Source: Chondrilla cf. caribensis
Taxonomy: Eukaryota; Porifera; Demospongiae; Chondrillida; Chondrillidae
Assembly: GCA_964020155.1 (NCBI GenBank)
Contig: OZ026546.1
Span: 8,368,879 to 8,432,878, forward strand
Length of the DNA: 64,000 nucleotides
Reading direction: 5' to 3'
In this document: one piece after another, positions 2,673 to 59,821 of the stretch
Numbering within the stretch: position 1 is the first letter of the stretch
How the letters are laid out: each line of letters opens with the position of its first letter
Position numbers and translations under genes: made by a program
The notes under the pieces: model-generated
The model's input: the letters and a program-made list of their open reading frames with translations, nothing else
Database searches by the model: none
What the model was told of the DNA's origin: nothing

Positions 2673-5644
2673 ATGAAGACGGCTCCAAAGCAACGCTACC
2701 CTGTAGCTGTGTTTGGCTATGTTTCCACTCAGTACACGTACTTTGTGGTTTGTATCATTTTATGGACCTCGATTATCGGTGAGCTAGCTTTGTCACACAT
2801 GTTTGCACGCGAGGAACGCACGTACGTACGTGGTACTTTTCTCCGTGTAGTGTGTTTGCTGCTTCTGAGACATAATTCCGCGTATATGGCTGTATTTTAC
2901 GTGGAGTATTATTATCTATGACAATATATCTACGCGTGCATGTGTGTGCTGTGTGTGTATGTAGCTATGTGCTTAGATCTAAGTTTTGTCAGGTAACAGA
3001 TGAGATTTAATCCCTTATGTCAAGACCACTTAATTCTGAGACCTAGCTGGGCACATGGGTCGTCTCCACTATGCAGATATTGTATCTGCAGTGGCCAAAT
3101 TACTGAATGGATTGTTGCTGTGATGAACCTGCTTTAGTTTATCAAATTGGAATTGATAGCCATCAATGAAGCATGTACATACTCCAAGTCCACTTATCTA
3201 TATAGACCGATCACCGAATGTTGGTGACAATTTTGTGTTGCCTGCAGTGTGCAGGTATTCACCAGGGTGTGATCGGTACTGATATTCAACCTTATGTGGT
3301 AGTGTCTGTTCGCTGGTGTTCCTGGAAAGTACGTACCTCATATTGAGCTTATAGTGGACTATATACGTAGCAGCATAATAATGATGATTATTGTTGAGGT
3401 ACACACACAGTTGTGTGCACCAACATGTGTGAAGAATACAACACAGAAAAAAAGGCTAGTTCCATCACCTTATCTCAATGGTGGGAATAGCTGTACTTTC
3501 TGTATTGTACCACACACCAGTGAATTGTATGAGGTTTCAGTTGTTGGTTACCAGCTGTCTATCCTGACGTGAGGTATTCAAAAGAGTAACTACTCCTTTT
3601 GTCAAGTAGAATTTTCAATTACTATGTGTTAATAATGTTTTCTCCAATGTATAGTTATAATGTATATATTGAACAATACACAATACCTTGGTACACAGTG
3701 TGGGTGGCCCCTTTAATTTAACCCTCAATAGATCCATACTCTTCATAACAAGCAGTCAAGGACCTGTTGTTCTGAACACTATAGAGTAAAAACTGAAATC
3801 AACTATCTCTAAATTGGTTGGTAGATGTTCACACAGTTCAGAATTATTGGATTGTGTTTCACTTTGTGTACTACGACTATGGACTGGTTTGCTAATAGCT
3901 GTTGTTGACTTGCATAGGTCATGCTCAACTCAACATCTCCACATCCACTCCTACTCCATGTTATGGAGATGTAGTGACTCTAGTGTGTCACCATCCTGAA
4001 CTGGCCAGCAACCCTCGAAAGTACGTCACTGCCATCCCCCAGTGGAGGGAGAACGGAGTGGGGATCACACCTGCTATCGGCTCTGTGTTTGATGCCAACA
4101 CAGCTGCAGAGCCCACCCACACAACTCTCACCATCAACATCACAGTGGACCACTTCAGGAACAAGTCCTTCAACTACTATTGTTTGCTGGTGTTAGCAGG
4201 TCTGGATGGACAACCAGACGGAATGGAGACCAGTGGAGAGGTCAATGTGAACCCTGTTGGTGAGTGGCTGTTATTGTTGGAGCCTTGTAGATTCAATTGG
4301 TTATGATCATGAGTATCAATATCTTCAGATGTGCCACCAGCTCCAGTAGTGGTTCAGAAACCGAATGCAACTTCTGACATAATAAAGTGGCAGCTCAACC
4401 CCAAATGCTTCACAGTCCTGGTCTACCACATTCTGTGGTATCCAGTGGACAGCCACTATCAACCAGTATCATCAGCTACCACCAGCAGAACAGAGTTCAC
4501 TCTGACCAACTTGCACAGCAATACGTCCTACATGGTGGAGATCATTGCCGAAACTGTCGACAAGACCCACACAATATCTCATAATGTATCAACCACCTTC
4601 ACCTTTGTGACACCAGGTACAGTAAAGGTTCACCACATCTGGTGTAAAGTGTGATATCATTCAGTACAGTATGTATACATGACAATACATGATATTATTT
4701 AATATGTACAGCTTGTGGATGTAGTCAGCTAAATTCCAGTGAAAATCTGATACCTGTGGCACTAACATGTGAGTGTGTGTCGTTATCAACATGTTCAACT
4801 TTTGAATCACTTTTATTCTAGTTTGTTTCTGGTGTAGCTCTGTCTCCCAACCAGTTTGTAGACACTTCCTGCCAAGGTCAATACACTGCTATTGGTTGTC
4901 TTGCTGTCACCGTGGTTACAAGCTGGCTGGTTTCCACTCTCATCATTGCTGTCCTCTGCAGGAAGTTGACAGGCAGAACACAAGGTGTGCACATGTCACA
5001 TGTGTTCAGTTATATCTGTAACCCACTATAGACTTATAGGAAAAGGGCCTAGACTAAGTATTGTTTAGTATACCTGTACCTGCATGTAGTGGTTGTGAAG
5101 TGTCTTAATGGTAGATTTGTATGTGTATATTGGGGATGTGTATATATGGTGTATGCCAGCGGATGGATACAATGGATTGTATACACAAGTTTTGTGCATG
5201 TTTGTGTTTTCCTAGGTATGCCCATGCTGCTGCATGTGGCTTGAAACCTTGCATATTCATATTATAGTAAATTTTGATGTACAGTGGGACCTCCTAATTG
5301 AATGTATGTAATCCAGCATACTTGATAATCTGACCAATTTCTGAGCATCATCACAAGCTATCGTATGCAAACCACCATAATATGACAGCCTTTGTACTCC
5401 AACATGTAATTGTTTTCCCAAAGAGTGTCTGATTATCAAGGTTCCACTGTACATTGGAAGACACAATGTCAAGCACATGTATGTTTGATCTTGTTTGTCT
5501 GACTGCTAACATTGTGTAGGGAATGTCGAGGACTCCACTACCCCATCTGTTGAAGGACCTTGTGTTGTGGTGGAAGACAGTCCTGCTTATGTCACTATTG
5601 AATTGAGGGACAAAACTGCTAAATCGCAATATATGAACATATAG
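2673..5644 (+). CDS. Receptor A: signal peptide-Ig-FN3-TM protein with ITAM-like tail
   Basis: Exons read from splice sites: 2673-2778, 3918-4259, 4329-4616, 4712-4768, 4838-4984 and 5520-5644. All junctions are phase 1 and together give an open frame of 354 residues. Exon 1 starts at ATG and ends in a hydrophobic run (FVVCIILWTSIIG), a probable signal peptide. Exon 2 is an Ig-like domain with CYGDVVTLVC and the later YYC cysteine. Exon 3 is FN3-like (SNTSYMVEIIAE). Exon 5 holds the TM segment (about VVTSWLVSTLIIAVLC). The last exon is a 40-residue cytosolic tail containing YVTI and, ten residues later, YMNI. SQYMNI also fits the ITIM consensus and YMN fits a Grb2-SH2 site. Expected location is the plasma membrane; the ligand is unknown. 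Its Ig exon is closely related to those of B and C. The 534-bp last intron carries a MITE. Confidence 0.78.
5282..5449. mobile_element. TA-flanked MITE (pogo/Tc1-like ends) in the last intron of receptor A
   Basis: The 168-bp element begins CAGTGGGACCTC and ends in the inverted form GGTTCCACTG, with TA on both sides (5280-5281 and 5450-5451). No coding capacity is visible. The ends resemble those at 43122-43562 and 48545-48740. Confidence 0.7.
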
Positions 5645-5778
5645 GTAGTGTATAGAGCTAGCTGCTCTGTGTGTGTTCACTATAGTATTGCAAAATGCAT
5701 TATTGCAATGATTGTAATATATAATTCCTGGCTCCTTTGACATTGAGCTTCCATCGTCCATGTACTATACCGACTATA

Positions 5779-6271
5779 GGGTAGCGGAGCCATATCCCGG
5801 TCACCTGATGGTTCAAAATAGATAGCCTCGGATAGAGAGCGTATTGAAACTTGATGAAGGCGCGTTTGGATAGATCTTCTATTCGTTCATTCCAACATAT
5901 TCTGTACTTCGCAGAAATATCCTCTTTTTCTGCCGCCGAGTCATTCTGATAACGTGACGTCGTTTTCCCTATTCCCGGACATGTTTTCCTGAATTCGGAC
6001 AGCGGTTTCGAAAGTATTTTAGAAGCTGCAAATCACAACTTAAAGGGGGGGGGGTATGTAATTTAGGCCTATTGTGCAATAAAATATGACCATTGCGTCA
6101 TCTCCTCGACTAGTGTACTTCGCAGGACGACTGCATTTATTTGAATTAAGATAGTTCAAGTTTCCACCAAGTATGATATAGCTTTGAAAACTTGGACTGT
6201 TCGTTTTTTTACCAAAGATTCTAAAAAAGTGTCCGACTAATGGCATTGTCCGGGATATGCGGTACCTACCC
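5779..6271. mobile_element. Non-autonomous element with GGGTAG...CTACCC inverted ends, copy 1
   Basis: The left end GGGTAGCGGAGCCATATCCCGG is mirrored at the right by CCGGGATATGCGGTACCTACCC. A second copy with the same ends and interior lies at 24482-25505, where it carries two extra insertions. No ORF with a recognisable product is seen. A clear target-site duplication could not be assigned. Confidence 0.65.
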
Positions 6272-6907
6272 GATATGGCTTCATGGTGAGGATATCGCTA
6301 GATCCGTGACTTAATGTACACAGTTCTATATACATAGCTTAGTGATACTGTCGGAAAATGGAGGGACATACCTAGCTAGCTAGGCCTATGATCGATCTGT
6401 TGATGTTCTTTGCTGTTGGTTGAATATTTATGACCCCATGCACATGATCTAGACGAGGGTCCTGCCGTGAAGTAATTGCATTGTCATATCCGGGATTCTT
6501 CAAGTTTAATGTTCTGTTCACGGTCCAAAGCAGTCTTCTCTACCCAAGTTTCTTAGCATGATGGTGAGTTATTTCTAGCGTTACTTGACAGGCATTCGAA
6601 TTTACAGCCGGCTATAGCCCTGGCTGGCTCGTTCTCTCGTTCACACTGAGGCACATCGCTCGACCAATCTATAATACTTGGCAATGCTGCTTTTTGGAGA
6701 TCTGGGTATCAGTATTCACCTCTATTGTATACGCTAGCTATATTTTGTAGGTTATCAGCGTCGATTTAAGGGATGGACGTCAATAGCTAGGGCCCATACA
6801 TACCTATAGCATAGTATACTGTGATACTGTACTAGTGACGCATGTGAATGTATGGCTTCAACCTGTCCCACTAATGAGCTACAATAGATAGTACTTTTAT
6901 TTACTGA

Positions 6908-7708: not shown

Positions 7709-8370
7709 GCCATTACTGATTAGGGTATAACAATGTTTACACTGTCAGATATCTATCCTGTCGTCCATTTATAATAATGAAAAGTAATCAAAACAGTATT
7801 TGTTATGTCATAGAGTATAGATTATGTTATAATGTTCAATTTAGGGACAATTCAATAAATGGATTGAAGCTACATCTTCTTCATTATATGCAATACAGGC
7901 AATGTCACACCAACCACCATGCAGCCTGCTGTAGCACATTGTGCCTTTGATATATACGTGTGCATAGTATTACATTCCTCGCATGTGTGTATACATGCCT
8001 AATTTGCAATATGTATTCAATTTTTATTATGGTATGTACTTATTTCATACAGAATTATGGCAAAGTGTACTCAGATTTTATGATTACTGTAATGATATTG
8101 TCTTTATCAGCCCATATCAGTGAGTTTATGCATGTGTGTGTTTGTGTAAATGTATATGTGTATAATAATATGTATTGTATGTGTGTGTATGTGTACTGTA
8201 TGCGTGTGTGATTGTGTATTTGTGTGAGTACTTTTGTGTGTGTACGTTTGAATGTGTTTCTGTTCTCTTTCCCTCTCTTTCTCCAAGTGAGTGTTACTTT
8301 ATACATCTATGTGTGTATGTACATTCAATTTAAATACTGTGCATACATTCCATGATTCTTTTCCTTACAG
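7216..8370. other. Region upstream of set B, no signal-peptide exon found
   Basis: I looked for an ATG-plus-hydrophobic exon ending in phase 1 at a GT donor, as found for A, C, E and F, and did not find a convincing one. The stretch 8100-8260 is TG-rich. A first exon coding only UTR, or one far away, cannot be excluded. Confidence 0.4.
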
Positions 8371-10408
8371 GTCACACTCAACTCAACATCTCCACATCCA
8401 CTTCTACTCCATGTTATGGAGATGTAATGACTCTAGTGTGTCACCATCCTGAACTGGCTACCAACCGTTCCAAGTACTTCACTACTGTACCAGAATGGAG
8501 AGAGAATGGTGAAAAGATCCCTCCTCTATCCAATACTGAGACATCAGAAGACCTTACATATACAACTCACACCATCAAAATTACAACAGATCACTTCAAA
8601 GGCAGGTCACTCAACTACGCATGTTTTCTAATATTGGATAAAAGTGGACTTCCAGGAAATATAGAAAGTAGTGAAAATATCACTGTGGATCCTGTTGGTG
8701 AGTGGTCGTGCAAATGTTATAGAAAGTCATAGTAATGTTAGTGGGTGTAATTTTTTGGTAAAAATAGTCAGGAAGGGTTCTGTCATTCTCTTGTGGAGAT
8801 TGTGTCACATATTAGAACTGTATTACAGTGTACATGTGCATTTGAACTGCACACAGGATACAGTTGAATGTATGCCTCATGATCAAATATTACTGCACTA
8901 CGCACTAGGTGTAGCCCGCCTAAAAGAACCCTTAATCATAACTGACGATAGTACATACTGTATATAGGTGTATATACACACACATGTACCCTAGCTAGTA
9001 TACATATAAGTTGCTATATATGTGTTGCTTTTACTCACCAGCTCAAAAACTACATGCAGTGATTTCAGTATTTTCATAAGTATCAAACACCATGCATGCA
9101 CAATGTAGACCACCATCACAAAGTATGAATTGTACTGAGCAAATTAAAACATGAAATTTTATTGTTTTTCCAATATTAAGACCTGACCCCACCTCACATC
9201 ACAAACATGGACCCTCTGGAGTCTTCCATCACTGTTGAATGGACCCCCCAACCCTGTGCTGTGAGGTACAATGTATCCTGGATGTACACCAATGGTGATG
9301 GTACTACTACTACTGGTAGTGGAGTCCCTGACCAGGTCACCAACTACACTATCCCAACCAGTGTACAAGGAGTGTATACTGTGTCAGTCCAAGCTGTTGA
9401 TGGAGTGGGTAATGTAGGACCAGCAACTAGTGAAGTAGTGAGGTCCAGTGAGTACTAACTCCACACTCTGTGTCTTGATGATAGTGTGATGATCAATTCT
9501 TCTCTCTTCAGCCTACCCTCAACCCACTGCTGATGCTCCTCCTTGTGAGGACAGGTCACTTGTTCTGACATGTCTAGTCAGTGGACTACACAATGATAGG
9601 AGATCACACTTCATCTGGATTGACGGGAATGGTCCACTTGTTAACTCTGATCAGTACTCCATTACTGGTGATCAGTTGATGATAGCTAAGGTCTGTGCTT
9701 TGAGTGATGGGGAGGACAAGGCCATTCGATGTAGTGAAGTCTTGAGCAATGGAATAGTAGTGACAGGAGAAGTGTACATGGTGGAACCACTCAGCAAATG
9801 CCCATACTGTACGTACTATATCCTTCTCACACATAAATTTATAAATCTCATTGTTGTCTCTCCCAACACACTTGATGGACATCATATGCCCCGTATACCC
9901 CCTGTATTTCATTTCTCCTAAAAATCCCAATGTATGTGTGCACATATGTACATGTACTCATGTATATGTCATGTATGCAGTATCCCCTCACACAGCAGAT
10001 GTACTGTAGACACAACACATGTACAATAACTTCATATGGGATAGTTTTTCATCACTTTCAAAGGAACCAACTGAGCGTATCTCCCATGCACAGGTAGTAG
10101 AGTATGTCATGATACACTGAGTGAAATACCCCGTCTTCTCATAACAATTTGATAGTTTCACTCACTGCATTCAGGGATGCTTCTCCTTTGAATTATCTCT
10201 TGTTGCAAATCTACCTTCCATAGCCGAGTCCCCTCTTACTGAAGGATTCAACCTTGCTGCTGCTATTGCTGTACCTGTCATTGGTGTGGTCACAATCCTT
10301 ATAATTGTTGTCATGGTGATTACTGGTATGTTATGGACTCATCGAAGGAAAGGAAAACATGGAGAATATGAAATGAGACCAGCTACAGATGAACAATCCG
10401 ATCCTTAA
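8371..10408 (+). CDS. Set B: Ig-FN3-Ig-TM exons with short tail, no signal peptide found
   Basis: Exons 8371-8697, 9181-9447, 9512-9808 and 10224-10408 join in phase 1 and give 357 residues to the TAA stop at 10406. The order is an Ig domain (CYGDVMTLVC...YAC), FN3 (VRYNVSWMYTN...), a second Ig-like domain (LVLTCLVSGLH...IRC), then one exon with the TM (about AAAIAVPVIGVVTILIIVVM) and a tail ending in HGEYEMRPATDE. The first Ig exon is close to that of receptor A. The FN3 and second Ig exons, plus the 64-bp intron between them, are nearly identical to those of set G on the other strand. With no start exon of its own, B is either an alternative 3' end of A or a gene whose first exon I missed. 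The short tail has no ITIM or ITAM. The donor after 9808 is the least certain boundary. Confidence 0.68.
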
Positions 10409-11916: not shown

Positions 11917-13936
11917 ATGACCCATCACTGGGTTACAGGGATCCTACTGTTGGTGGCTGGTTTTATTCAAAGTGAGTGGGCTTTTCATACTGCTACATGT
12001 ATAGTATATACCGTATAACATACAGCCAGTGATATGCTATTCAAATTCAATCATGGTATGCAAGGTCTTAACAACCAATACCATCCTCACATGTGTACAT
12101 GTATAAACCTGTTTTGGTAGTTTCATGACCAACCAAAATTATTCAATGACATGTTTATGCGTTCTGCAAACAGCTAAAACAGCCCTTTTCTCTGTAGTAA
12201 TTGTGACCTCTTCCTACTGGTATGTACACATTTGACTAGCTAGCTACATTCACAGTGCATGCTAGTGTGTGTGTAAACCCAAAGTGTAAATGTATGTAAT
12301 ATGTGCATTGTTATGATTGAACAATAATCATTTCATATCAATAATCATCATTCCTATACACACAGCCAATTAAATATTATATCCAGATGCTCCCGTATAT
12401 GTTTCCCTTGTTGGCATCCACGTTAATTCTGCTCTCATACATATGCCTGACTTCCTATGTTAGGATCCAATGTGCATGTACTGACTTTATCATATCAGTT
12501 GAAATAGCAATCGCGATTCTATGTATGTTGCCTGTGGTGCCTTGTATTGAACACAATTGTAATCCTAGCTGTGTGGTGTAGTTGGTATGATAAATATGCA
12601 GTGATTGGTAGTATGTTCAGTTACATAAGTAATTATCTCATTCCATTCGACAAATAACAACACCTTAATGTGTACTCCTATAATCACATTAATTTATACA
12701 ATAATGACAAACTCTGCTGTGTGATGATATTTTTGACTTGTCATTGTTTTTTTTTGCTGTTTTCTCTCTCATTGCAATACAGCTCATGCTGACCTCACCA
12801 TCTCCACATCCACTCCTACTCCATGTTATGGAGATGAGGTGACTCTAGTGTGTCACCATCCTGAACTGGCCAGCAACCCTGGGAGGTACTTCAGTACTGC
12901 ACTAACATGGAGGGAGGATGGAGTAGGGATCACACCATCTACTGGTATATACCTCCAACCTGATACATCAGAGGACCACACTCGTACAACTCTCAACATC
13001 AACATCACAGTGGACCACTTTAGGAACAAGTCATTCAACTATTCTTGTCTACTAGTGTTAGCTGAGAATGGACTACCTAGTGGAGTGGAAACTAGTCAAG
13101 AAGTCTCTGTAGACCCTGTAGGTGAGCTAGTCCATTTGTACTGGTGTACTGTGCATGTATACACTTTGTGGTAGCACAACTGTGTCTATGGCACCATCAA
13201 TTAGGTGGTGATTTGTTAATCATTGTTACAGTATGTATGTTATTCATCACTACACACCCTCTTGGTCAAGTGGGTGTGACCTCATGACCTGTACATAGAC
13301 TGCACCTTATATGGTAATGTCAAGTGTAGGGAATGTTTGTGGACAATTTGATCATAAAATCCCCTGTCCAACATCCTGCTTGTAGCCTTACCATACTGTA
13401 CACCTGGTGATTCATTGTGGGTTCATAATGACATTATGAAGTACTGGTGTGCATCTGACCATACAATGGTGGTATATATATTATAAAGAAACTGATGTTA
13501 ATCTACTTCTGGTACCAACTCTCCCATGTTGAGTTACATATTCAATTAATTGTACATCTTACAGTCATTACTTATCCTAACGCACATCCCTCAGGGATCC
13601 AGTAGTTCCCCACCACCTGTAGTCAATTCTTCACTGTGATCTGTGTAGACATTCCCCTGCCACCGAACATCACAGAGATTGATTCTCGACATACTAACGT
13701 TACACTACAATGGTCACATGACAGTATGTGTTTTGAGAACAGTGTATTCCACTACCTTGTAACATGGGGGAGTACCAGTGGTGGTCCCAGCAAGGAGGTG
13801 CGTACATCTGCTAGCAACATCACCATAGCAACCAGTACCAGACAGACATATGTTGTGAAGGTTAGAGCAGTTGGTAAAGATGGGACAAATGAGTATCAGA
13901 GTGAAGAGGTTCTAGTACAAGTTACTGCAGGTGTGT

Positions 13937-13986
<50 letters not shown>

Positions 13987-16176
13987 ACGTGCATACAAGT
14001 TGTACTATGTCATGTTCCACAAACATAATACTGTACAATGCTTGCTATTAATAACTCATAAATCACAATATCTTCATTACACCATATGTAGGCCTCCCAT
14101 TAGTGAATGGACTGGATGATCAGCCATGCTACGACAGGTCCTATGCACTGGTATGTGAGCACCAGTACAGTGGAGGGAGTGTGTGGTTAGTGGGGGAGGA
14201 CCAGGTGCCCATCACTCAGAGTGGCTCACTCTACACTGTCAGCTCAACTACACTGGAGATACACAACACGAGGGAAGCAGTGTCTGAGGGCAGTGAAGTG
14301 TATCACTGTCGTGTGGACCTTCCTACTGGGACCACTGTGAGGGGAAGTGGATACATCCTGAGTCCTTTGAGTGAGTGAGTGTGTGTGTGTGTGTGTGTCC
14401 CCTCACACAATGACAAATAGTCACTTGTTCCAATGTCTCTCATAGTCATGCCACACTATAGGCACAGCTGTTGTTGGTACTGTGCTGGGTACTTTGTGTG
14501 GTCTAATATGTTTAACTCCCTCTAAAGTATTACACATTCCATACACATACCGTACCACCTGTACATGTTCACTCTACTATGATATTATGTGGGGTGTCCT
14601 TCCTCTGTAAGCTGTGTTCTGAACTTGCAAGGATGTCTGTTGTTGTTGTTGTAGGTCGTCCATTGAAACCTGAAATTACATCTGTGAACTCAGGTTCGTA
14701 TGGCATCACTATTTCTTGGAAACAGTCCTCACACTGCTATGAGCTGTTCCAGTTCACTCACGAGGCTCAGTGGAAGAAGGAGAGTGAAACAAAATGGTCC
14801 CACTCCACTCAGCAACCTCCTGGTACCAAACACACCATATCTGGTCTGAGTGCAGCTACTTCATACAACATCAGAGTGAGAGCTGTAGCAGTGGACCCCA
14901 AATCCTCTGATACGACACTTCATAGTCATTTTACTGAACACAACATTGTGACATCATCAGGTGTGTTAGCACCCTCTGACTCATACATGACATGTACCTG
15001 AACACATTCATTCAAGTTGTACACTTCTCTGGTTAGTGCATTGTCGCCAGCTTATGAATGAATACTTATTAGTAGTGACCTTTTGCTATTGATACCCAAA
15101 TTTGCTGAGTCAGGTGCTTATGTGACATACACAAACACACAATCAGCCAATGTTGAACTTGTCACTCCATACCAGTGAAGGGACCCACCTGCTATCTGTA
15201 GCTAGTGGAATGTTTCCAGTACCCAGTTCCTGTATACTTGCACTACTGTGTATACACTCTGTGATACACAGAGTGGTGACCTCTCGTACGTACAAATCAT
15301 ATTACTATACATATGGGATATCTGATGCCTACTTATTATCACCTTTAATAAATTCATTTTTTTGCAAGTTGATGGATGTGGATGGTATCCATAGGAGTGG
15401 GGTGATTCAGGTACAGGTTCATCCTTGCTGTATTACCGATAACTTACTGTAGCATTCTGCCAGCACTACACTAGCTATCAGGTGGAAAATGTACACACAG
15501 TCCCCTTCCACTCAGATGCTGTTACATGTAGTCAATGTATGTACTATACGTATCCTATGTACAGTACGTATATTATGTGTACCTCATTGTTCTGTACATG
15601 TCTGTGTACTTTGTTGATACATGTGTCTAGTATGTGATCCTCACCCACTGCTACCATAATGGTCATATTCCTACCCTTTCTACACAGAACCTCTGATCAT
15701 CAGTTTCGGGATTATCGGATCATTCCTCCTCATCTCAACAATTGTGCTCACAACAATACTCACCATTTCCTGTTGTAGATATCATGTGTCAACCAACTCA
15801 CAATTGAAGCAAAGGAATAAAAAAGGTGAATAAGACACACTAGCTGGCTCTACGTGTGTGTATTGTACATTGTTATACATTCCGTGGTACCGAATACAGT
15901 ATATGATGTCACACGCATATACAATTACGTAGTAACATTCTTGTGCACAGTTGTTGTTTATTGTTGTTTTTATGAAGTTTACATGTTGTTTATAGATGTT
16001 GCTTCATCTCCACTTCAACAGACACTAAAGATGACATCAACGATGCCAACATGGACCACCACAGGAGAGTTCCCCCTAATCCACCACTGGAGAATGAGAT
16101 TTTTGAAAGAATTGCAAATCCTAGTTACCAGCATCTAGAGATGTGTCACGAGAAAGTGACCTATTCAAACCTCTAG
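11917..16176 (+). CDS. Receptor C: signal peptide-Ig-FN3-Ig-FN3-TM protein with an ITAM-consensus tail
   Basis: Exons 11917-11971, 12783-13121, 13649-13930, 14092-14370, 14655-14960, 15688-15825 and 16022-16176 are all phase 1 and total 517 residues. Exon 1 encodes an 18-residue signal peptide with core VTGILLLVAGF. Then come Ig (CYGDEVTLVC...YSC), FN3 (NITEIDSRHTNVTLQWS), Ig (CYDRSYALVC...YHC), FN3 (TSYNIRVRAVAV) and a TM segment (about IIGSFLLISTIVLTTILTIS). The tail exon encodes NPSYQHL and, eight residues after its Leu, TYSNL at the C-terminus, which fits YxxL-x8-YxxL. VTYSNL alone also fits an ITIM, and NPSY fits NPxY. Signalling by Tyr phosphorylation is inferred from motifs only. A second acceptor at 15995/15996 would give the tail in another frame with no such motif. 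The donor after 13930 runs into a GT microsatellite. Confidence 0.82.
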
Positions 16177-16604
16177 ACCATCAGTAGTGGTAAACAGTGT
16201 AACATGAGTCCTTGCTTTGGACAACTGTTTAGAGTTTTCAGTTTAATTCACCAATTGGTAATGGGATTATAGCCATTCTGTCCATGAATGGTGCTTATAG
16301 TAAACCATTATAAGTTTCATAATGTATTGATGTGATACTGTAGCCACAACTTCCACGTGTTCACTGTAACAACAACTTTCATTTAGAATTCTTATCGTTC
16401 ACACGGAATATAAATATATTATATATACATGTGATGTTAGTATAGATATGTATAATAATATGTGTATGTATAATAAGATTGTATAGGTCATGTGATATTA
16501 ATAGGCATTTATTTTGTATAGTAACAGTTTGACGTACGTATGTGTGATACGTATGAGGTTCTTTTCACATATTACGTATTATTTACATTTTCTACCCACT
16601 GCAG

Positions 16605-19600
16605 AACCACAGCCACCCTCTGGTATCAACAACATCACCACTCGTAATACCAGCATTTACTTCGACTGGGCCCACACTCCAGTGGAGTGCTATGAGGGCA
16701 GGACCAGCTACTACGTGTCCTGGGTTAACATTGACAACAACACTGAGAGTGGTTCCAGTGTCACTACAGAACACATGATCAAGATCACAGGCCTTGTTGT
16801 TAATAACACCTACAACATCAGTGTTAGGACGGTAGTGAACGGGAATGTTCAGAGTACAGCTGTATCTAGAAATGTGCTGACTGGTGGGTAGAACCAAAAG
16901 TTGTAATCTTCTACTTGTAAACTGCCATGATGGCCATGCACAGAAAAGACGATGTAATGTTGATTCATGTGTGGAACGCATCAACAAAATTTTCCTCTTT
17001 TACACAAGAACAAACTGTAGCTTGTAACTATGATGTGCCATTTGTGTAAATATTCATATAACGTTGACATATGTATGTATCACTCCCTTCCTTCTTTCCT
17101 GACTTACAAATAATATTACCAGTTATGAATCGTTGTCACAATGTTCTGTGATTGCGTAAGACTAGCTCTGTACTCACAATGCAATAATATTTGTTTGCAT
17201 TCTTATGTACATACGTAGGTGAACCTCGATGTCTCCCAAAGAACCCAACACAGCCAGTTTGTCGCAACAGTAACTATACTTTGGTTTGTGACGTCCCCAT
17301 GATGTATGTAGGCAACTATCGTAACATTTACTGGTTATTTGGTTCCCACAACACGAGTGGATTCACCCCTTACAATACCACAAAAAATGGTAGAGAGCTG
17401 GTCATTCACAATGTGACAACAAATACAACTGGTGACTATGGATGCTGCATTGAGCTGAATAATACCAATGGAACCCTTGTGGGAGGAGAGACGTACCGTA
17501 TGATACCCCTAGGTATGTATATTGCATTATTTGTATAACTGTCACTATGAACTTCCTGTTTTTCCAGGTTTATAACTAAATTCCACGTGGACACTTTACT
17601 TCCTCTCCAACTTGCATAGACTCCCCAAAGAAGCCTCACAATCTGATGCTTGTTCCAGGTGATGCTAGCATCAGGGTATCCTGGCAACATGACAGGTCCT
17701 GCTTTGAGGATCATGAGTTTAAATTCATTGTTACTTGGCAGGAAGTAGACCCCGGAAACACCTCTGGAAATATGACAATGAATGAGAAAACCTTCAACAT
17801 TGAAGGCTTGGAGCCTTGTGCAAACTACAAGATTTGTGTTTCAGCTGTGAGCAACTCTGATGATCAAGTGAAGAGTGGAGAGACTTGTCGGCATGCATGT
17901 AAGAAGTATGCATACATTATAACGCAATTCTTGTATGTCATATGACATGCTGCAGTAACTTTCATTGTATGTATTTTGTGGTGTCAAAGATTGAGGGACA
18001 CGTATGTGACTTCTAACTGGCTACCTTTACCTAAATGTTGACCAGTATAGCCAACAAGTGGTGTGTGTGTGTGTACATGTAACATCTTAATGTCTTGTCC
18101 ACAAATCGATTTATTAACTTCCATTAGCAATGACCTCAACAGAAACAGTCAGCCATACAATAAGTGCATTTTAATGAATTCTTCAACCCATTCAGCCACA
18201 CTCGCAACTGGAGGAGTCAACTCTGTTGCCATTGGTGTTTCCATTGCTGCGGTCGTTCTAGTCCTTACTGGTGTAGTTGTTGTCATTCTGATTGCTTGTG
18301 TGGTCTGGAAGTACAGGAGAAGTAGAAAGACGTTTCTTCCAGTGAGTAGTTTATTAGTAATATTTCATGTCGTTTGTTCATTTGCTTGTGTGTGATGTTC
18401 TCCTCTGAATTGAGGACACCTCCTTGTATTGCTGTGTATGTGTCCACTATAAGGAGATGCCTCAACTCTGTCCGGTCATTTACTTATATCTAACATATAT
18501 CTTTCACCATCAGGTTGACTGTATATTGTACATGTACAGCAAAATGTAAAATCACACAGTTACTCACACAGACACATAGACACATACAGATACATGGACA
18601 TTCATGTGTATATTATGCTGTGAAGTGGATTAAGGGACTTAAGTTGGTAACATCCTCATCACAACGTTCGGCAGGTCTCATCTGTGTTTGAGTTCAGTCA
18701 TTGTGTGTATTTGTACATAGTACCAGCCAGGATTATGGTATCTTGTACGTAAGTTGGAAGTTTAGTTGTTTTCCCACTATTTCTTCAAAAGTCAGAGCAA
18801 CCTGAATCAGGATCAAATCCAGCCTTGGAGAGAGTGGTCATTATGCAAGGAGGTATACAAGCCACCAGGGATCAGCCACAGACTGCTTCTCAGAGAACAA
18901 CCACTATTTATGCAGATCTTGACTTCACTGGTGATCGTCCAATTCGTCCTCCTTCATCTCAGGAGAAAGTGACTTATACCGAAGTGGGAACTAAGCCTGT
19001 AAGTGTGTTACTATTTATGGTTTATGTTTCCTGCTTGTATTTGTGTCTATTCAGGAATAATGAAATGGTACTGAACAAGTTCCATAAAGCCACATATGTA
19101 TATAACATAGATCTACGTCCTTTGCTGTTGGTACTTTATAGGAAGCAAATATTCCTGTCTTTGATCTTTTTTGCCGGAAATGAAAGTATTATTAACATAT
19201 CATTTATGTGTACTCCCCTACTTGCCCCAGTCCAAGGATGTTGATACTTCTCCAGAGTTGCCTCCTAAGCAAGACCAACAACAGAGTGAGATGACATTGT
19301 GTGCACATACACGTAACCATGTTAAGTTTACATACTTACTCTACGTACAGTATATATCATTGACAGCATGTGTACATTTGTTGCATACTTGTAATCTGTT
19401 ATACTGTACATGTGGTAGTGTTAACTGAGGTCTCACTGTGCAGTGTGTCCCTACTCATGTGCTGTACATGTAGTGTTAACTGTGGTCTCACTGTGCAGTG
19501 TGTCCCTACTCATGTGCTGTACATGTGGTAGTGCTGACTGAGGTCTCACTGTGCAGTGTGTCCCTACTCATGTGCTGTACATGTAGTGTTAACTGAGGTC

Positions 19601-21081
19601 TCACTGTGCAGTGTGTCCCTACTCATGTGCTGTACATGTAGTATTAACTGAGGTCTCACTGTGCAGTGTGTCCCTACTCATGTGCTGTATGTCTGTTGCA
19701 GTCAAGGCTTTCAGAGATGACGTGAAAGCTGTTCTGGACAAGAATGGAGTCATTTGCAAAGAGCTTGAAGACACTGAGGAATTAAAAGGAATAAAAAGAG
19801 AGTCTGCATTCACTGCAGAGTACAATGACATCCATTTTGTTGCCATCTGTGTGTACACCTCATCTGATCTTAACATCAACCATGTTCACATGGTGATGGA
19901 AGCCATGCATTTGGCATGGATCAAATTGGGTCTCCTGATATCAAACCAGTCCACCATCCCATCTGAGTCCCTCCTAACACTGGAGGATGCTGGTTGTCAG
20001 TTTGTACCTGTTGGTGGGTATGGGGAGGAAGGATGGGAGGACAGGATGATTGATAAGTTCAAAGATGTCTTCACAAAAGTACCCAATGATGACAGTAAGG
20101 TCAGTTCCTCCATCTTGACAGTACTCTGTACAAGGTGATGTTTAACATGATCCCCTACCTCTCATTACAGCTCAAAGGCCCTGTACAGGAGTCCAATCCT
20201 CCTCCTCCTCCTGATGACGATGGTAAACTTCCCACTACTCATCCAAAGGAGAAAGTTTTTGGAATGGTTCGTTTCATTTGTTGTGTGTATGGTGTGTGCT
20301 GTATGTCACTTATGAGGAGTTCTTCTTATACTGTAGCTTCTAGCTGAGCATGACAAGGAGCCATCTCATGACCATCAAAGTGCAATTCAGGTGAGAGTGT
20401 GATTTTGTTGACAGAACTGTGTGTGTATGTCCTAAGTACATCCATTTCTTCATAGAATTCCTCATTATACTTACATGCATATATAGTATGTGATAGTTAT
20501 CACCTGTTTATGAGGGCAATTAGTCTGATATTGTGTGAGACCTGAGGGCATGATATCAGATGCATTGCCCTTGTAAACAGATGATAATTGGCCTAATGAA
20601 AAATTAAATTACTATAAGACTGAAGTTCTGACGTGTTACTCAAATGTAACAATTATTAAGTAAGTCGCACATAAAAGCAGCCTTAAATAACCATGGGACG
20701 TCAATATAGGCACTTATTTGACATGAAATCATGATTACAAAACATGCTTATGTATAGGCACTAAATCAATATTGCGACATTCCAATACATTATATTGGAG
20801 ATTTCTTTGCAGAACACCCATACAATACAATAATTCATGATGATATATTACTGTATGCATATGTATGTCATGTACATTATCCCCATAGTGTACATATGCT
20901 GTGTCCATTATGACACACTAAACTCCCTGTATGTATCCTGTATATTATGTGTGGGCTATGTTATGGACAACTATAGGAGGAGAGTACGAATGTGCAAAAT
21001 GTAACAGAAGACCACAATCAAAGTCCTCCATCACCTGACACCACCCCCGGATCCCCCAGTAGGACTGATGGCAACAGCTGA
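16605..21081 (+). CDS. Set D: FN3-Ig-FN3-TM with tandem ITIM-like motifs and a novel cytosolic domain; no signal peptide found
   Basis: Exons 16605-16883, 17219-17512, 17620-17898, 18196-18341, 18792-18998, 19231-19285, 19702-20099, 20171-20266, 20337-20390 and 20977-21081 keep one frame of 636 residues to TGA at 21079. The order is FN3 (NNTYNISVRTVV), Ig (CRNSNYTLVC...YGCC), FN3, a long TM (about IGVSIAAVVLVLTGVVVVIL), then a basic stop-transfer RRSRK. Exon 18792-18998 carries TIYADL (Tyr at 18909) and VTYTEV (Tyr at 18975), 22 residues apart, like tandem ITIMs of inhibitory immune receptors. Next come a short linker, the 132-codon unrecognised domain, and Pro/Asp-rich tail exons. Boundaries are phase 1 up to the TM and mostly phase 0 after it. 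Only 428 bp separate it from the stop of C and contain no plausible signal exon, so splicing from C ectodomain exons is possible. Confidence 0.75.
19411..19690 (+). repeat. Minisatellite, about five units of 56-59 bp, in an intron of set D
   Basis: Units contain ACTGAGGTCTCACTGTGCAG and CCTACTCATGTGCTGTACATG and recur about five times, differing by a few bases. The array ends just before the acceptor of the 19702 exon, and each unit contains its own CAG and pyrimidine stretch. Confidence 0.85.
19702..20099 (+). other. Exon encoding unrecognised cytosolic domain, copy 1 (set D)
   Basis: This 398-nt exon enters in phase 1 and leaves in phase 0. It encodes about 132 residues. Visible pattern: a helix-like start, then EYNDIHFVAICVY, a helix-like stretch with HVHMVMEAM, a hydrophobic strand GLLIS, then GCQFVPVGG and a Trp-containing segment ending DKFKDVF. 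The same pattern occurs in the 404-nt exons at 39009 and 40210. I do not recognise the family. The alternation of strands and helices is loosely like small alpha/beta folds such as the restriction-endonuclease-like group, which is only a guess. Confidence 0.6.
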
Positions 21082-35213: not shown

Positions 35214-37247
35214 ATGCTATACTTTGTTTTTCTGGCAGTAGCCAGCCTTCAAGGAGGTTTGTGTACCACTAATAGCGGTCAGTTGTAAAGCTGCAATTAA
35301 TTTCACATTTAATGTTTTATTAGCTACAGCTCAGCTCTTCCTCTCAACACCCACTGATGGTGTTCAGTGCTATGGTGACCCAGTCACCTTGGTGTGTACC
35401 CACCCTGTACTACCTCAAGTACCAAAATACATGCGTGCTGATGTTAGCTGGAGGAGAGATGGTACAGCAATATCAACTGCTGGTATGGCTAATAAAGCAA
35501 ATAAGACCAACTCCACAACAACCACACTTCAGATCACCATTGCTGAGGACACTGTTAGGAACTACACTTGTTTTCTATTCAATAATGAACAAAGAAGTAT
35601 TGTGGAGAGTAACAGTGTATCTGTGAGACCACGTGGTGAGTATACATATTAACAATTCACCCTGGTTGAAATAGGCATAACTTTCTTGTGTAGATAAGTA
35701 CCTCAAATGTTGGATGTATGAAGTGTACAAGTATGCCAATTTGTATACAGCTATACTTCAACACACACTCAGTGACTCTCCTTCCTCCAAAGATCACTAC
35801 AATAGAGTCTCTCACTGAGAGAACCTCACTAACATGGACACACAATACAGTGTGTTTTAATACTAGTGACATAGAGTATGTAGTGAGCTGGGTGGACCTG
35901 GCTAGTGGTGGAGGTCTCAATGGTACTACTGTGGAGAGGAACTTCACTATAAGGACTGGAGTGAGGGGGGTGTACCGGGTGAGGATTACGGCTACAGTGA
36001 AGGGTGTGTCCAGTGTAGGAGGTGTGGCTGCTAGCTGGGAGGATAGCGGAACTGAAGTACTGGTACATCCAGGTATGTTACCATTGTGTGTTGTGTGTGC
36101 ATGTCCAAAGATTCACACTCAGAATGTCTCACTACTGCACAGGCCAACCCACTGCTCAAGGTACTGAGGGTGGTGCCTGTTTTGGACGGCCATTTTATCT
36201 GACATGTCTCCATAGCTACACTACTGACTATGACATCATCTGGAGTGTGAATGGAAGTGGAATTGGGACCAGTGACCTAGTGTATGTTGTGAGAGGGGAC
36301 ATCCTGGTAGTCACTAACATCACTGAGGACCTCTTCTCCAATGTTGTCACCTCCTTCAAGTGTGCTGTTCTCCTCAATGGGACTAAGTTCACTGGAGAGC
36401 CCTACCTCATGGACCCTATTGGTACAGTAACTCTTGTGTTGTGTGTGATGTGGAGTGTGTTTCATGAGATGTGTTCTCTCTTCAGAGCGTCCCCTCTCAC
36501 CAGAGGTGATGGTCACAGACTCCACCCCCTACACTATAGTGCTGACACTGGACCACTTGGAGGTGTGTTTTGAGGACTACACTTTCCACTACAAGATCTC
36601 TTGGAGCAGAGCAGATGGAGAATGGTCCCTTCCAGTAGAAGTCCCCCTCATCCCATCCTACACCATCACTGGTCTGAGTCCAGGTAGTGAGTACAGAGTG
36701 AGAGTGTTAGCAGAGAGTGAGGAGGACTCTACTGTAGTCAGTGGACCAGTCACTGTCAGAGCAGTCACACTAGCAGGTGTGTATTTATGTACACAGTTTT
36801 TGCATGTATGTACCTCTGAGTATACGTATGTGTAGCGTGTACGTGTGTGTGTGCATGTGCTAAGTACGTACGTATGTGTTGGTGTATACGTACATGTGTG
36901 TGGGTGAGGCTCCTGGGTGTATGTGTGGTTGTCATATTGTGCACACCCTCATCTGTACCTATTAATGCCCCCAGGTCCTATTATCGGAATAGCTACTTTG
37001 TTTGGACTTCTATCCGTCATCACAACCACATCAACCCTGTGTCTGTTGGTTTGTGTGGTTCAATTATTCAAGAAAAATAAAAGTGATAAAGGTACACTGT
37101 ATGTACTTCAAGGAACATTTGTGTTTAATAATGTGTTTTGATCTCCTCACAGAATCCAATGATTTTCACTTGCCCAATGATGTTCCCATGACAACCAACC
37201 CCGGCTACATGAAGACCATTTTGTCCACCCCACAGCCTCCACCATGA
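35214..37247 (+). CDS. Receptor E: signal peptide-Ig-FN3-Ig-FN3-TM protein with NPxY tail
   Basis: Exons 35214-35256, 35324-35635, 35773-36072, 36143-36421, 36486-36776, 36975-37091 and 37153-37247 are all phase 1 and total 478 residues. Exon 1 encodes a 14-residue signal peptide, MLYFVFLAVASLQG. Then Ig (CYGDPVTLVC...YTC), FN3 (YVVSWVDLASGG), Ig (FYLTCLHS...FKC), FN3 (SPGSEYRVRVLAE), a TM segment (about IIGIATLFGLLSVITTTSTLC followed by LLVCVV) and basic KKNKSDK. The 31-residue tail has NPGYMKTIL, an NPxY motif used by PTB domains and clathrin adaptors, and ends in QPPP. The domain order matches receptor C. F on the - strand is a near-identical inverted copy. Just past the stop a short PPTYENV frame remains. 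Ligand unknown. Confidence 0.85.
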
Positions 37248-37406
37248 CTCCACCCACCTACGAAAATGTGTAGAAAACTGTTGTAGTTGATCATTACGAA
37301 TTCTGCAGTAGTTTATACCTATTGCTAACCCTTTCATACGTCACTTTATTTTCTGTTTTATTATGTGCTTGAATGATACACACACACACACACACACAAT
37401 ACACAG

Positions 37407-45552
<8,146 letters not shown>

Positions 45553-53699: not shown

Positions 53700-54150
53700 G
53701 AGTGGTAGCAAGGGAGGATATTGGACAAGAAGAGGTAGCAAGGGAAGACATTGGACAGGAAGTAGTAGCGAGGGAGAACATTGGACAGGAAGAGGTAGTG
53801 AGGGAGAATATTGGACAGGAAGAAATAGTGAGGGAAGACATTGGGCAGGAAGAGGTAGTGAGGGAGAATATTGGACAGGCAGAAATAGTGAGGGAGGACA
53901 TTGGACAGGAAGTAGTAGTGAGGGAAGACATTGGGCAGGAAGAGGTAGCGAGGGAGAACATTGGACAGGAAGAGGTAGTGAGGGAGGACATTGGACAGGA
54001 AGAGGTAGCGAGGGAGGACATTGGACAGGAAGAAGTAGCGAGGGAGGACATTGGACGGGAAGTAGTAGTGAGGGAGGACATTGGACAGGAAGTAGTAGTG
54101 AGGGAGGACATTGGACAGGAAGTAGTAGTGAGGGAGGATATTGGACCCAT
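53700..54150. repeat. 30-bp minisatellite, about 15 units
   Basis: Unit GAGGGAGGACATTGGACAGG plus a variable AAGTAGTAGT/AAGAGGTAGC part. As the unit is a multiple of three, several frames stay open across the whole array on both strands (+ strand REDIGQEEVA-type repeats, - strand CPMSSLTTSS-type). There is no flanking splice or start context that makes it a gene. Confidence 0.9.
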
Positions 54151-54347: not shown

Positions 54348-54348
<1 letters not shown>

Positions 54349-54599
54349 TCTAAGCACAACAGTTTGTTCTGTTGTACAGACAGGACCTTCTCCAGACACA
54401 CACACACACACAATGAAAGAACTAATGTAATCTACTTTCAAGTCTCAGATATGTCCAGACAAAGGGATAGCCTATTACACCTCACATTCCTAGTCTATGG
54501 TGGGTCCTCCAGATGGTCTGGGGCAGTGGGACGGTGCCAGCATAGAGCCCACTTGGATGACAATACTGCTTTCTCGGGAAAAGGTGTACGTTAGCGAGA

Positions 54600-55344: not shown

Positions 55345-57576
55345 TCATCCTGGTAGGGAAGACAAAGGTGTTTCAAAATACTTCTCTACTATGATAGCAA
55401 TTGTGGCAACTACACACAGGTAAGCACACACTACGTACAACAGAGTCAACACTGAATGTCCACACACACTAACTTTCTCCTCTCCTACTCCAATTGGAGT
55501 AGCATATGGAGGAGCAGGAACAGGTTGATTATCTCCAAAACCAACCTGAGGACGATAGTCTGTTCTGGTCTGTTCACCATTGGTTAGAGCACCATCAACC
55601 TAACAATTTCATATTGAAGATCATATGATTTGGTTAGAATCCTCATGCACACACACAAACAAAACATACGAAACTCCTTGTGTGTAAATACATGTACATA
55701 CATACACATACGTATTTACATGTACATACGTATATGCACATAAAATTACAGGTATTTATGGAAATACACACAATGCAATGTAACATTATACACATCATGA
55801 ATATAAACATTGCATACACTGTAATGGTACAAATACTTACGTACATGTGGAATAGAGACAGTGTGATACTTTCTTTGTCCTCTTTTATTATGACAATAAG
55901 CTACAAGTATTATCACAAACAAGATTGCAATCGCAAGATGAATACCAATGGTCACAGTAGGGATCAGAAGAGTAGTGGTGAGGTTATTCCCTTTGATAGG
56001 TGGCTCAGCTGAGGAAGAAAATGTTTGCAAAGTACAAGAAAATGCTGTACAAGCATACAGATGTATCTTACAAACATATACACCAGAGGGTAGACCTCAT
56101 CACAGATGTACTGTACTTATATACAGCACACCAGTTGCTGGAGATGTCTTGTACATATTATGCACGTACAAATGTAGACATGTATACTGTACTGTATGTG
56201 TACCTGATATGAAGATAACAAACAGATTCCAAAATTAACTTAATTATACTACATGTGCATGCATATACATGTAGTATAATACATACTATTATAAGTAGCA
56301 TTCATGGTAGTTATGGATGTTATGACTGTAATGTGCATGTACTTTGAAATCTTATTCTAATATTCTAATTTATTGAAAAGTTGCAATGTGGTTATAAAGA
56401 ACTTTTCATGTAGATATTTTGGCTTGTTGCATCCAGAGTTGACTGTATGTGAACTAGACTATTGAATTCCACTATTCGGTTATTAACTGTTGCTCCACCA
56501 ACCATTCCACTCACCAAGTGTTGTTACATTACGTACTCTCATTCCACCAACCACTCCTGATCCACCCACCCCTTGTACACTGATCTGATAAGAGGTACCA
56601 GGTTGGAGTCCACTGATGGTGTATGGAGAGGATGGGGTGGTCACATTGGTACTGGTCCCACTTCCAATCTCATTCCAAATTACAACAAAGGTGAACATTT
56701 CAGACTCGAAACAATGAAGTGCAGTGTTCCACGTTAAAGTGATAGTGGAATCTGTTGTTGTTATAGTCACTTCAGGAGGACCTGGTTGGGCTGGTGGAGA
56801 GGATTATATTAACAATAACAGTGTGGTTGCTGTCACAGTACACAGACACAACTATCATCCTCCAGTATTAGGAGACACCTAACCCAATAGAAGCGAGAGT
56901 GATACAGAACACAAAATGCATGCTGAGTGAACACTTGAAATACATTTCTCAACACACAATACATACCCAGTGGTTCCACCTTGTATTCTGTACCTTCCAC
57001 TACCATTCCATTGTTCAAGACTTCACAGCATTGAATAACCTTGTCCTCCTCACTCAAAGTACGGAGGTTAACTATCACCAATTGATGACCAGTCATGAAG
57101 GATACAGTGGAGTTAGTGAGGTTACTATTCCCGTCCATCCAGAAGAAACGTGATCTCCTATCATTGTGTAGTCCACTGACTAGACATGTCAGAACAAGCA
57201 ATCTGTCCCCACAAGGAGGTGCATCAGCAGTGGGTCGAGGGTAGGCTGAAGAGAGAAGAATTGATCATCACACTATCATCAAGACACAAAGTGTGGAGTT
57301 AGTACTCACTGGATCTCACTACTTCACTAGTTGCTGGTCCTACATTACCCACTCCATCAACAGCTTGGACTGACACAGTATACACTCCTTGTACACTGGT
57401 TGGGATAGTGTAGTTGGTGACCTGGTCAGAGACTCCACTACCAGTAGTAGTAGTACCATCATCATTGGTGTACATCCAGGATACTCTGTACCTCACAGCA
57501 CAGGGTTGGGGGGTCCATTTAACAGTGATGGAGGACTCCAGAGGGTCCATGTTCGTGATGTTAGGTGGGGTCAGGT
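55345..57576 (-). CDS. Set G: FN3-Ig-FN3-TM exons with Pro-rich second-TM exon; no signal peptide found
   Basis: On the - strand: exons 57576-57310 (FN3), 57245-56967 (Ig, LVLTCLVSGLH...QCC), 56790-56515 (FN3, GTSYQISVQGVGG), 56008-55845 (TM about LLIPTVTIGIHLAIAILFVI, then NKRGQRKYHTVSIPH) and 55599-55345. The first two exons and their intron are nearly identical to those of set B. The last exon enters in phase 0 if the TM exon stops at the GTACGT donor. It encodes a Pro-rich stretch (QPVPAPPYATPIG) and a second hydrophobic segment (VLTLLYVVCAYLCVVATIAI) before TGA. That exon is the weakest call: it could belong to another small membrane protein. No signal exon lies between G and the stop of F (about 225 bp), the same arrangement as A/B, C/D and E/E2. 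Confidence 0.6.
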
Positions 57577-57800
57577 CTACATTTGTATAGGAAAGAACCC
57601 AATGAAGAGTGATGTAACATGACATGTTAAAAGGTTAACTGTTGGCTAAAAGCACCAGGTCCAGGAGTTCACTTTCAGGATCTATTTACTGTATGGACTA
57701 TCAAACACGTGACTGCTCATGTAGACTAGCACATGACTGTCATGTATGCTAACTATGCATTAATAAGCTTAGTAGTTGAACAAGTAACAGTTTTAGTTCT

Positions 57801-59821
57801 CTAAATGACGTGAGTGGGTGGAGGTTGTGGGGTGGACAGAGTGGTCCTCATGTAGCTGGGGTTTGTTGTCATGGGAATGTCATTGTCTGAGTCAACATTG
57901 TTGGATTCTGTGAGGAGATCAAAACACAATATCAAATACTTAAAAGTAGTCAATAAAGTACACATGTACGCACTTTTAACATTTTTCTTTTTCTTGAATG
58001 ACATCACACAAAAGAACAGGAAAATAATTGACATGACTGTGGTGATGACAGATAAGAGCCCAAAACCAGATGCCAATCCAATAATGGGACCTGAAGGACA
58101 CAGACAAACAGTTATTAAGTGAGAGTAGTGAGTGCATGTACACACAGTACGTACATATATAGTACAAGTATGGGTCACAGTGTACAACACACACACACAT
58201 ATACAGATCACACCATACACATGCATGTACAACTTCACAACACTCACCTGCTAGTGTAACTGCTCTGACAGTGACTGGTCCACTGACTACAGTAGAGTCC
58301 TCCTCGCTCTCTGCTAACACTCTCACTCTGTACTCACTTCCTGGACTCAGACCAGTGATGGTGTAGGACGGGATGAGGGTGAACTCTACTGGAAGGGACC
58401 ATTCTCCAACTGATCTGCTCCAAGATATCTTGTAGTGGAAAGTGTAGTCCTCAAAACACACCTCTGAGTGGTCCAGTGTCAGTACTATAGTGTAGGGGGT
58501 GGAGTCTGTGACCGTCACCTCTGGTGAGAGGGTACGCTCTGAAGAGAGAACACATCTCATGAAACACACTCCACATCACACACAACACAAGAGTTACTGT
58601 ACCAATAGGGTCCATGAGGTAGGGCTCTCCAGTGAACTTAGTCCCATTGAGGAGAACAGCACACTTGAAGGTGGTGACAACATTGGAGAAGAGGTCTTCA
58701 GCGATGTTCATGACTACCAGACTGCCACCTATCATAACATACACCAGGTCACTGGTCCCAATCCCACTTCCATTCACACTCCAGATGATGTCATAGTCAG
58801 TAGTGTAGCTATGGAGACATGTCAGATAAAATGGCTGTCCAAAACAGGCACCATCCTCAGTACCTTGAGCAGTGGGTTGGCCTGTGCAGTATTGAGACAT
58901 TCTGAGTGTGAATCTTTGGACATGCACACACCACACACAATGGTAACATACCTGTATGTACCAGTACTTCAGTTCCACTATCCTCCCAGCTAGCAGCCAC
59001 ACCTCCTACACTGGACACACCCCTCACTGTAGCCGTAATCCTCACCCGGTACACCCCCCTCACTCCAGTCCTTATAGTGAAGTTCCTCTCCACAGTAGTA
59101 CCATTGAGACCTCCACCACTAGCCAGGTCCACCCAGCTCACTACATACTCTATGTCACTAGTATTAAAACACACTGTATTGTGTGTCCATGTTAGTGAGG
59201 TTCTCTCAGTGAGAGACTCTATTGTAGTGATCTTTGGAGGAAGGGGAGCCACTATGTGTGTGTTGAAGTATAGTTGTATACAAATTGGCATACTTGTACA
59301 CTTCATACGTCGAACATTTGAGGTACGTACTTATCTATCACAAGAAAATTATGCCTACTTCAACCAGGGTGAATTGTTAATATGTGTACTCACCCAGTGG
59401 TCTCACAGATACACTGTTACTCTCCACAATACTGCCTCGGACAGCATTAGTCAGGAAACAAGTGTAGTTCCCAATAGTGTCCTCAGTGATAGTGAACTGC
59501 AGCGTGGTTGTTGTGGAGTTGGTCTTATTAGCCATACCAGCAGTTGATATTGCTGTACCATCTCTCCTCCAGCTAACATCAGCATGCACATATTTCGGTT
59601 CTTGAGGTAGTTCAGGGTGTGTACATACCAAGGTGACTGGGTCACCATAGCACTGAACACCATCAGTGGGTGTTGTGAGGAAGAGCTGAGCTGTAGCTAA
59701 TAGAACATTAAATGTGAAATTAATAGCAGCTTTACAACTGACCGTTATCAGTGGTACACGAACCTCCATGAAGGCTGGCTACTGCTAGAAAAACAAAGTA
59801 CAGCATTACAAAGTACAGCAT
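57801..59821 (-). CDS. Receptor F: inverted near-copy of receptor E
   Basis: On the - strand, exons 59821-59764, 59696-59394, 59251-58952, 58881-58603, 58538-58248, 58090-57974 and 57907-57801, all phase 1, total 484 residues. The domain order is as in E: signal peptide, Ig, FN3, Ig, FN3, TM (about IIGLASGFGLLSVITTVMSI), tail. Exons and introns are highly similar to E throughout. Differences: the signal peptide carries a 15-bp tandem duplication (MLYFV twice), the stop-transfer run is KKKKNVK, and the tail has NPSYMRTTL and ends in PPPTHVI rather than PPP. NPSY is an NPxY motif. Like E it should be a plasma-membrane receptor. The pair are recent duplicates lying about 20 kb apart, facing each other. 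Confidence 0.85.

Follow-up and report, generated by a model that had tools for sequence, protein, structure and literature searches.

In the IgM/IgD heavy-chain locus of jawed vertebrates, a leader and a variable immunoglobulin (Ig) exon are followed by a proximal and a distal constant region of the same orientation, both equipped with membrane exons of their own, and the distal constant region is reached by skipping the proximal one. A comparable order of exons was found in three receptor loci, here called C/D, E/E2 and F/G, within a 64,000-nucleotide stretch of contig OZ026546.1 of the sponge Chondrilla cf. caribensis (positions 8,368,879 to 8,432,878; hereafter the window). In all three, a leader, a first Ig exon (Ig1), a fibronectin type III (FN3; FN in exon names) FN-Ig-FN series, a transmembrane (TM) exon and a short tail with a stop codon are followed on the same strand by a second exon set with a TM exon of its own. 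The likeness to IgM/IgD, known here from genomic sequence, lies in a leader and V-like exon standing before two same-strand stems, each with its own TM. The differences are that the variable domain is a single germline exon, that there are many loci instead of one, and that the tails differ in signalling content. Each of these bipartite loci is probably one gene with a common leader and Ig1 and with two alternative stems chosen by splicing.

The fuhc locus of Botryllus schlosseri is likewise an Ig-type recognition locus in which the first part ends with a stop and a second, membrane part lies a few hundred base pairs downstream. It was first described as a case of alternative splicing; a later account has two genes separated by 227 bp, with a very small exon for the leader and some transcripts that join the two (PMC3691228). 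There a leader of its own precedes the second part, and the first part is secreted and carries EGF domains (PMC3691228), whereas the proximal halves of C, E and F have a TM exon, the same stems occur directly behind Ig1 elsewhere in the genome, and the gaps in the window are leaderless in our scans. The Botryllus FcoR genes, where splicing can swap immunoreceptor tyrosine-based inhibitory motifs (ITIMs) and hemITAM motifs, and the Hydractinia alr genes resemble the sponge loci as Ig superfamily (IgSF) receptors with ITIM-type tails at recognition loci; compared by description, a repeated two-stem layout is not among the features named in the passages compared (PMC12065747). No report of a two-stem receptor layout was recognised in the open-licence part of PubMed Central.

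In E/E2 (forward strand), the signal-peptide exon (35214-35256; MLYFVFLAVASLQG) has a phase-1 donor and is followed by the variable N-terminal Ig1 exon (35330-35635; Pfam Ig_2 27.7 bits, cut-off 27), the proximal ectodomain block FN1-Ig2-FN2 (35773-36776; exons 35773-36072, 36143-36421 and 36486-36776) and TM1 with the short tail and stop (36975-37247; TM1 36975-37091, tail 37153-37247, PMTTNPGYMKTILSTPQPPP). The distal half opens with the FN-like exon of E2 (37407-37712), for which no leader of its own was found in the scans, and continues to TM2 and its tail (38333-40613; TM2 38333-38500). F/G lies on the reverse strand: its modelled signal-peptide exon (59764-59821) encodes a peptide near-identical to that of E, and modelled Ig1 (59394-59690) and proximal block FN1-Ig2-FN2 (58248-59251) exons precede TM1 and the short tail with stop (57801-58090; tail PMTTNPSYMRTTLSTPQPPPTHVI). 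The distal part G consists of an FN-Ig-FN2 ectodomain (56515-57576; exons 57576-57310, 57245-56967 and 56790-56515) and TM2 plus tail exons (55468-56008; 56008 to about 55845 and about 55596-55468, ends approximate). C/D (forward strand) has a signal-peptide exon (11917-11971; MTHHWVTGILLLVAGFIQ), modelled Ig1 (12783-13121) and C-type FN-Ig-FN block (13649-14960) exons, and TM1 with a tail (15688-16176; TM1 15688-15825, tail acceptor provisional) ending in VTYSNL, which we take to be ITIM-like by consensus. The distal ectodomain D (FN-Ig-FN, 16605-17898, first exons modelled) is followed by its TM and tail (18195-20090, borders provisional; TM 18195-18341), including the tyrosine motifs TIYADL and VTYTEV at 18789-18998.

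In C, E and F, every Ig1, FN1, Ig2, FN2 and TM1 exon is bordered by AG and GT, has a length divisible by three and is of phase 1-1, and the same is true of the first exons of E2, G and D. An earlier note on this stretch had ascribed phase 1-1 to every ectodomain exon, and this is true of the exons just named. Phase 1-1 exons are the rule among Ig/FN3 genes, so alone they prove little, and they were dropped as decisive evidence by themselves. The junction positions proposed in the note (36776 to 37407, 58248 to 57576 and 14960 to 16605) coincide exactly with modelled exon borders, and the close spacing it reported was confirmed in three loci, the distance from the proximal stop to the distal exon being about 160 bp in E, 225 bp in F and 430 bp in C. 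Above the Pfam cut-offs were fn3 at 36485-36775, 14654-14959, 17619-17897, 16604-16882 and 56486-56803 and Ig_2 at 35242-35649; the remaining tested domains were below cut-off or without a match. Judged from their recognisable Ig and FN3 domains, the predicted products of the bipartite loci are IgSF/FN3 type I membrane receptors. The AlphaFold model of Ig1 had a mean predicted local distance difference test score of 54 and was not used, and Rfam searches at gathering scores found nothing.

The genome (137 Mb, 37 contigs; the window is on contig C1) was searched with the E, G, E2, D and C domains, and the receptor family was found mainly on C1 and C13; family loci fetched as sequence from elsewhere in the genome bear L-numbers (e.g. 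L013-L040). Distal first-exon matches were combined by position, without fragment and duplicate matches, and the underlying match tables give lower bounds. When the nearest upstream element on the same strand within 6 kb was recorded, 35 of the 60 distal matches stood directly behind Ig1, 21 behind a proximal block and four behind neither. By match position the bipartite plan is thus present at 21 same-strand places, with E-type proximal blocks in 17 and C-type blocks in four; 16 were read as sequence, namely 15 of the 17 E-type places (13 fetched and two in the window) and, of the four C-type places, C/D. Because the layout recurs in this way, it is more than chance. Among 29 E-type proximal blocks or fragments, a distal stem lay downstream in 17; upstream, Ig1 was the neighbour in 20, a distal stem in one, and no neighbour was detected in eight, four of these being broken copies on C15. 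Three copies on C19 had Ig1 and the proximal block without a distal stem within the fetched stretch. For C-type blocks, a D-type stem followed within 6 kb in four of five, and the fifth had a fragment at 6.1 kb. From these neighbour counts, the stem types G, E2 and D each occur both behind a proximal block and in its absence. Identity between the C and E blocks is only 27-36%, and therefore the plan is either old or arose repeatedly.

Further arrangements were seen within the family. In L016 (3639-5273), three tandem sets of TM plus tail follow one proximal ectodomain, with ends of the FN2 exon repeated between them, which are possible further alternative ends. On C1 at about 8.197-8.200 Mb, two proximal blocks with TM and tail (L013 and L020) lie on opposite strands with their tails facing each other, and a D-type FN2 and tail come next. 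In a tandem cluster on C13 (about 3.51-3.68 Mb), genes with Ig1 and a G-type stem largely alternate with genes with Ig1 and a D-type stem, and these lack the proximal block.

The suggestion of the earlier note that one ectodomain could be joined to alternative membrane or signalling ends accounts most economically for the evidence across the family, with the modification that the shared part is more likely the leader and Ig1 only, because the same stems elsewhere directly follow Ig1. Its signal-less second halves are likewise leaderless in our scans for D, E2 and G, but they are not odd, since they are normal stems of the family. The likeliest key junctions are accordingly Ig1-to-distal ones: 35635 to 37407, 59394 to 57576 and 13121 to 16605. 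One pre-mRNA would yield Ig1 on the proximal stem (FN-Ig-FN, TM, short tail and stop), a short-tail receptor; alternatively, the proximal exons would be skipped and the same Ig1 placed on the distal stem, made of FN or FN-Ig-FN, another TM and a longer tail, often with a nuclease-fold domain and in D with two tyrosine motifs. The FN2-to-distal junctions are also in frame, and a longer form could keep the proximal FN-Ig-FN and skip only TM1 and its tail. We infer that this splicing takes place, and presumably cells would regulate it and the two ends would signal differently.

The common and the exchangeable parts differ strongly in their variation. In 13 loci, the mean pairwise protein identity of Ig1 was 0.52 (0.31-0.92), while the proximal domains of the same loci had mean identities of 0.94, 0.88 and 0.93 (12 or 13 copies). 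At the DNA level, 19 full copies of the proximal block (E at 35761-36785, F and the L013-L030 set) had mean identities of 93-96% in the exons and 96-97% in the pair of short introns between them, against 33% and 30% in the flanks (15-150 bp to either side); the edges are sharp and lie close to the outermost acceptor and donor. Because the internal introns are this similar and the flanks are not, the block appears to be homogenised as DNA, kept alike by conversion or recent spread. A piece of E-type Ig1 of 17-25 residues lies at least about 1 kb upstream of a complete Ig1 of the other type in L023 (442-516), L033 (912-986), L034 (1156-1206) and L035 (1156-1230); it may be what is left of an Ig1 that was exchanged, or else an additional exon.

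Introns of the simple loci, where the stem directly follows Ig1, resemble the surroundings of the block. The Ig1-to-stem introns of the simple E2-type loci L033-L035 matched the Ig1-side intron of the bipartite L025 with 81-84% identity over 350-420 bp, and a second piece of the L034 intron (bases 371-816) matched L025 up to about 70 bp before the block. At the other end, the L033 intron matched the interval between the stop and the E2 FN exon (E2_FN) in L022 (98% over 129 bp) and L028 (90% over 114 bp), and the intron ends of L034 and L035 matched the same interval of E, L016, L022 and L028 (72-90% over 39-102 bp). The G-type simple intron of L040 matched L027 and L030 in their Ig1-side introns. 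The two flanks of the block therefore each resemble the corresponding end of one intron, and the suggestion that the block sits inside a former single Ig1-to-stem intron is supported but not closed. CA-rich repeats adjoin the E2_FN acceptor (37373-37406 in the window, and the same place in L016, L022, L028 and L033-L035) in bipartite and simple loci alike, and L014 has no long repeat of this kind. CA tracts can play a part in splicing.

Both halves of the bipartite loci have retained features of functional exons. The proximal tail motif NPxYM was present in 18 of the 22 loci read (L013-L032, E and F); of the other four, L014 carries a variant form, L018 and L019 are truncated, and L031 gave no match. 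The distal first exon keeps its splice sites and frame in all 15 E-type bipartite loci read, and an extra tandem copy of it in L028 is broken. In the 36 copies of distal exons of the bipartite group, 16.9 in-frame stops would be expected under neutrality and two copies had one each, a contrast that is overstated, since the expectation treats the copies as independent. In this test, as in the counts of intact exons and the ratios of nonsynonymous to synonymous substitution (dN/dS) given below, L023, which has a proximal block without a distal first exon, was counted in the bipartite group; the exon counts exclude L031 as too divergent, and the stop expectation excludes copies holding Ns.

Several observations weigh against one gene with alternative stems, and they are divided between two rivals. 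Two tandem genes in the manner of fuhc-sec and fuhc-tm, the distal half having its own start and a short, missed leader exon and the pair being duplicated together, are rather unlikely, with the similar layout of Botryllus as their precedent: fuhc turned out to be two genes, with a gap of 227 bp and a 67 bp first exon with the leader (PMC3691228), and the stop-to-distal gaps here are 162-848 bp. A strict scan found leader-like exons in two of 16 stop-to-distal intervals (shuffles 2.35), and it is over-strict on donors and would miss the leader of E itself. When the scan was relaxed, so that it picked up the known leaders of E, F and C though not that of A, leader-like exons were found in six intervals against 2.6 in shuffles (two of 100 shuffles reached six), and in four of 19 genuine introns, or 0.64 per kb against 1.30 in the intervals, thus slightly above both controls. 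None of the six is in the window, where neither scan found a leader candidate in the three intervals (C, E and F). Two near-identical pairs, L017/L024 and L026/L030, have hydrophobic open reading frames (ORFs) beginning with ATG in common, as their 94-96% identity predicts, but yield different exon candidates, which, like the empty window intervals, counts against two genes. A short ATG segment is common to several G-type gaps in differing frames, L025 and L027 agreeing, and in the F/G gap, in favour of two genes, a weakly hydrophobic ORF with an in-frame ATG continues into the G FN exon, its homologue in L021 having a stop. Polyadenylation hexamers were found in two of the 16 intervals (shuffles 4.5). 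Two genes would also fit the intron comparison, where none of 13 bipartite loci matched a simple intron on both sides of the block; the Ig1-side matches are in the G-type loci L025, L027 and L030 and the distal-side matches in E2-type loci only, the latter being part CA repeat and in part expected of paralogous exons, and G-type stems are without any distal-side intron match. That the same stems stand directly behind Ig1 at 35 of 60 places argues for alternative stems of one gene instead.

The other rival, a distal half that is a cut-off relic, silenced by the proximal block with its stop and now decaying, is very improbable, and the evidence for it includes the dN/dS of distal G-type exons: 0.97, 0.88 and 0.86 in bipartite loci against 0.60 and 0.47 in simple ones (two exons measured), values which may reflect relaxed constraint. 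For E2_FN the order was reversed (0.57 bipartite, 0.98 simple), and the proximal exons of bipartite loci had 0.54-0.69; the dN/dS values, from an earlier exon mapping with mis-mapped exons dropped, fit diversification, relaxation or noise. Among remapped exons, 12 of 116 copies were flagged for damage, masking or a border other than GT/AG: the FN2 frames of L018, L019, L023 and L029, a stop in the Ig exon of the G-type stem of L026, the same exon broken in L032, one masked exon in L032, the lost acceptor of the G-type FN2 in L023, GC donors in FN2 of L016 and the G-type FN2 of L030, the extra L028 copy, and a donor in L037 that may be a mapping error. Single loci are thus damaged, though the intact first exons and the few stops, far below the neutral expectation, led us to reject the view that the distal halves are wholly dead. 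Decay also fits poorly with the divergent C/D-type pairs, which have the same plan at four places, with C/D alone read.

The distal tail of D carries a domain (19695-20090) with a predicted PD-(D/E)XK nuclease fold (the fold of Can2, AF1548, EndoMS and McrC) including its alpha-beta core, and the tail domains of E2 at 39029-39412 and 40212-40613 are related to it. The catalytic motif of this fold is an acidic/Gln-x-Lys pair on the third strand. The (D/E/Q)-x-K pair was seen by eye in none of nine aligned copies, the strand being placed from one model, and no Pfam family matched the distal tail domains above cut-off. The domain shares its predicted fold with PD-(D/E)XK nucleases but is here the tail of a membrane receptor, without the catalytic pair, and is possibly a pseudo-nuclease signalling domain in membrane receptors.

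Taken further, and more tentatively than the single-gene interpretation, the family might be a germline-encoded parallel to antibody class choice that lies outside the vertebrate antibody system. About 20 loci would each combine a diversified V-like Ig exon with two alternative stems, and one of these stems would be a block of DNA that spread or was converted from locus to locus while its introns stayed nearly the same. A recognition domain could then trade stems through recombination and select its signalling end, including repurposed nuclease-fold ends, through splicing. If the splicing is real, the choice of a constant region below a common variable domain is not a speciality of vertebrate antibodies and also exists in another animal, within a large family of germline receptors. 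The family would then be a testable system for the uncoupling of recognition diversity from signalling output, in evolution (homogenised blocks beside a diversified Ig1) and in the cell (alternative ends).

The fourth bipartite locus of the earlier note, A/B, did not stand beside C/D, E/E2 and F/G, whose exon models agree with the plan, and was ruled out since B opens with its own Ig1. The first exon of B (8371-8700) is an Ig1 of the N-terminal type, as in A and C, with FN (9180-9455) and then Ig directly behind it and no proximal block. The absence of a signal exon claimed for the second halves agrees with our scans for D, E2 and G. Upstream of B, a GT-rich stretch contains several candidate leaders, one of them about 250 bp away (8080-8119). 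B (8371-10405, forward strand) is by its exon order an ordinary gene, Ig1 followed directly by a G-type stem, and A (2673-4616, forward strand; leader 2673-2778, Ig1 about 3918-4261, FN to about 4616) is a separate small receptor.

The window begins with repeats (1-515) similar to the sequence at 20099-20344, directly behind the D tail domain, as if another D-type gene ended upstream. Long ORFs at 31214-32107 (forward strand) and 62393-63316 (reverse strand) resemble pieces of reverse transcriptase by eye, and a 30-bp minisatellite of 14.5 copies at 53711-54146 is open in several frames on both strands.

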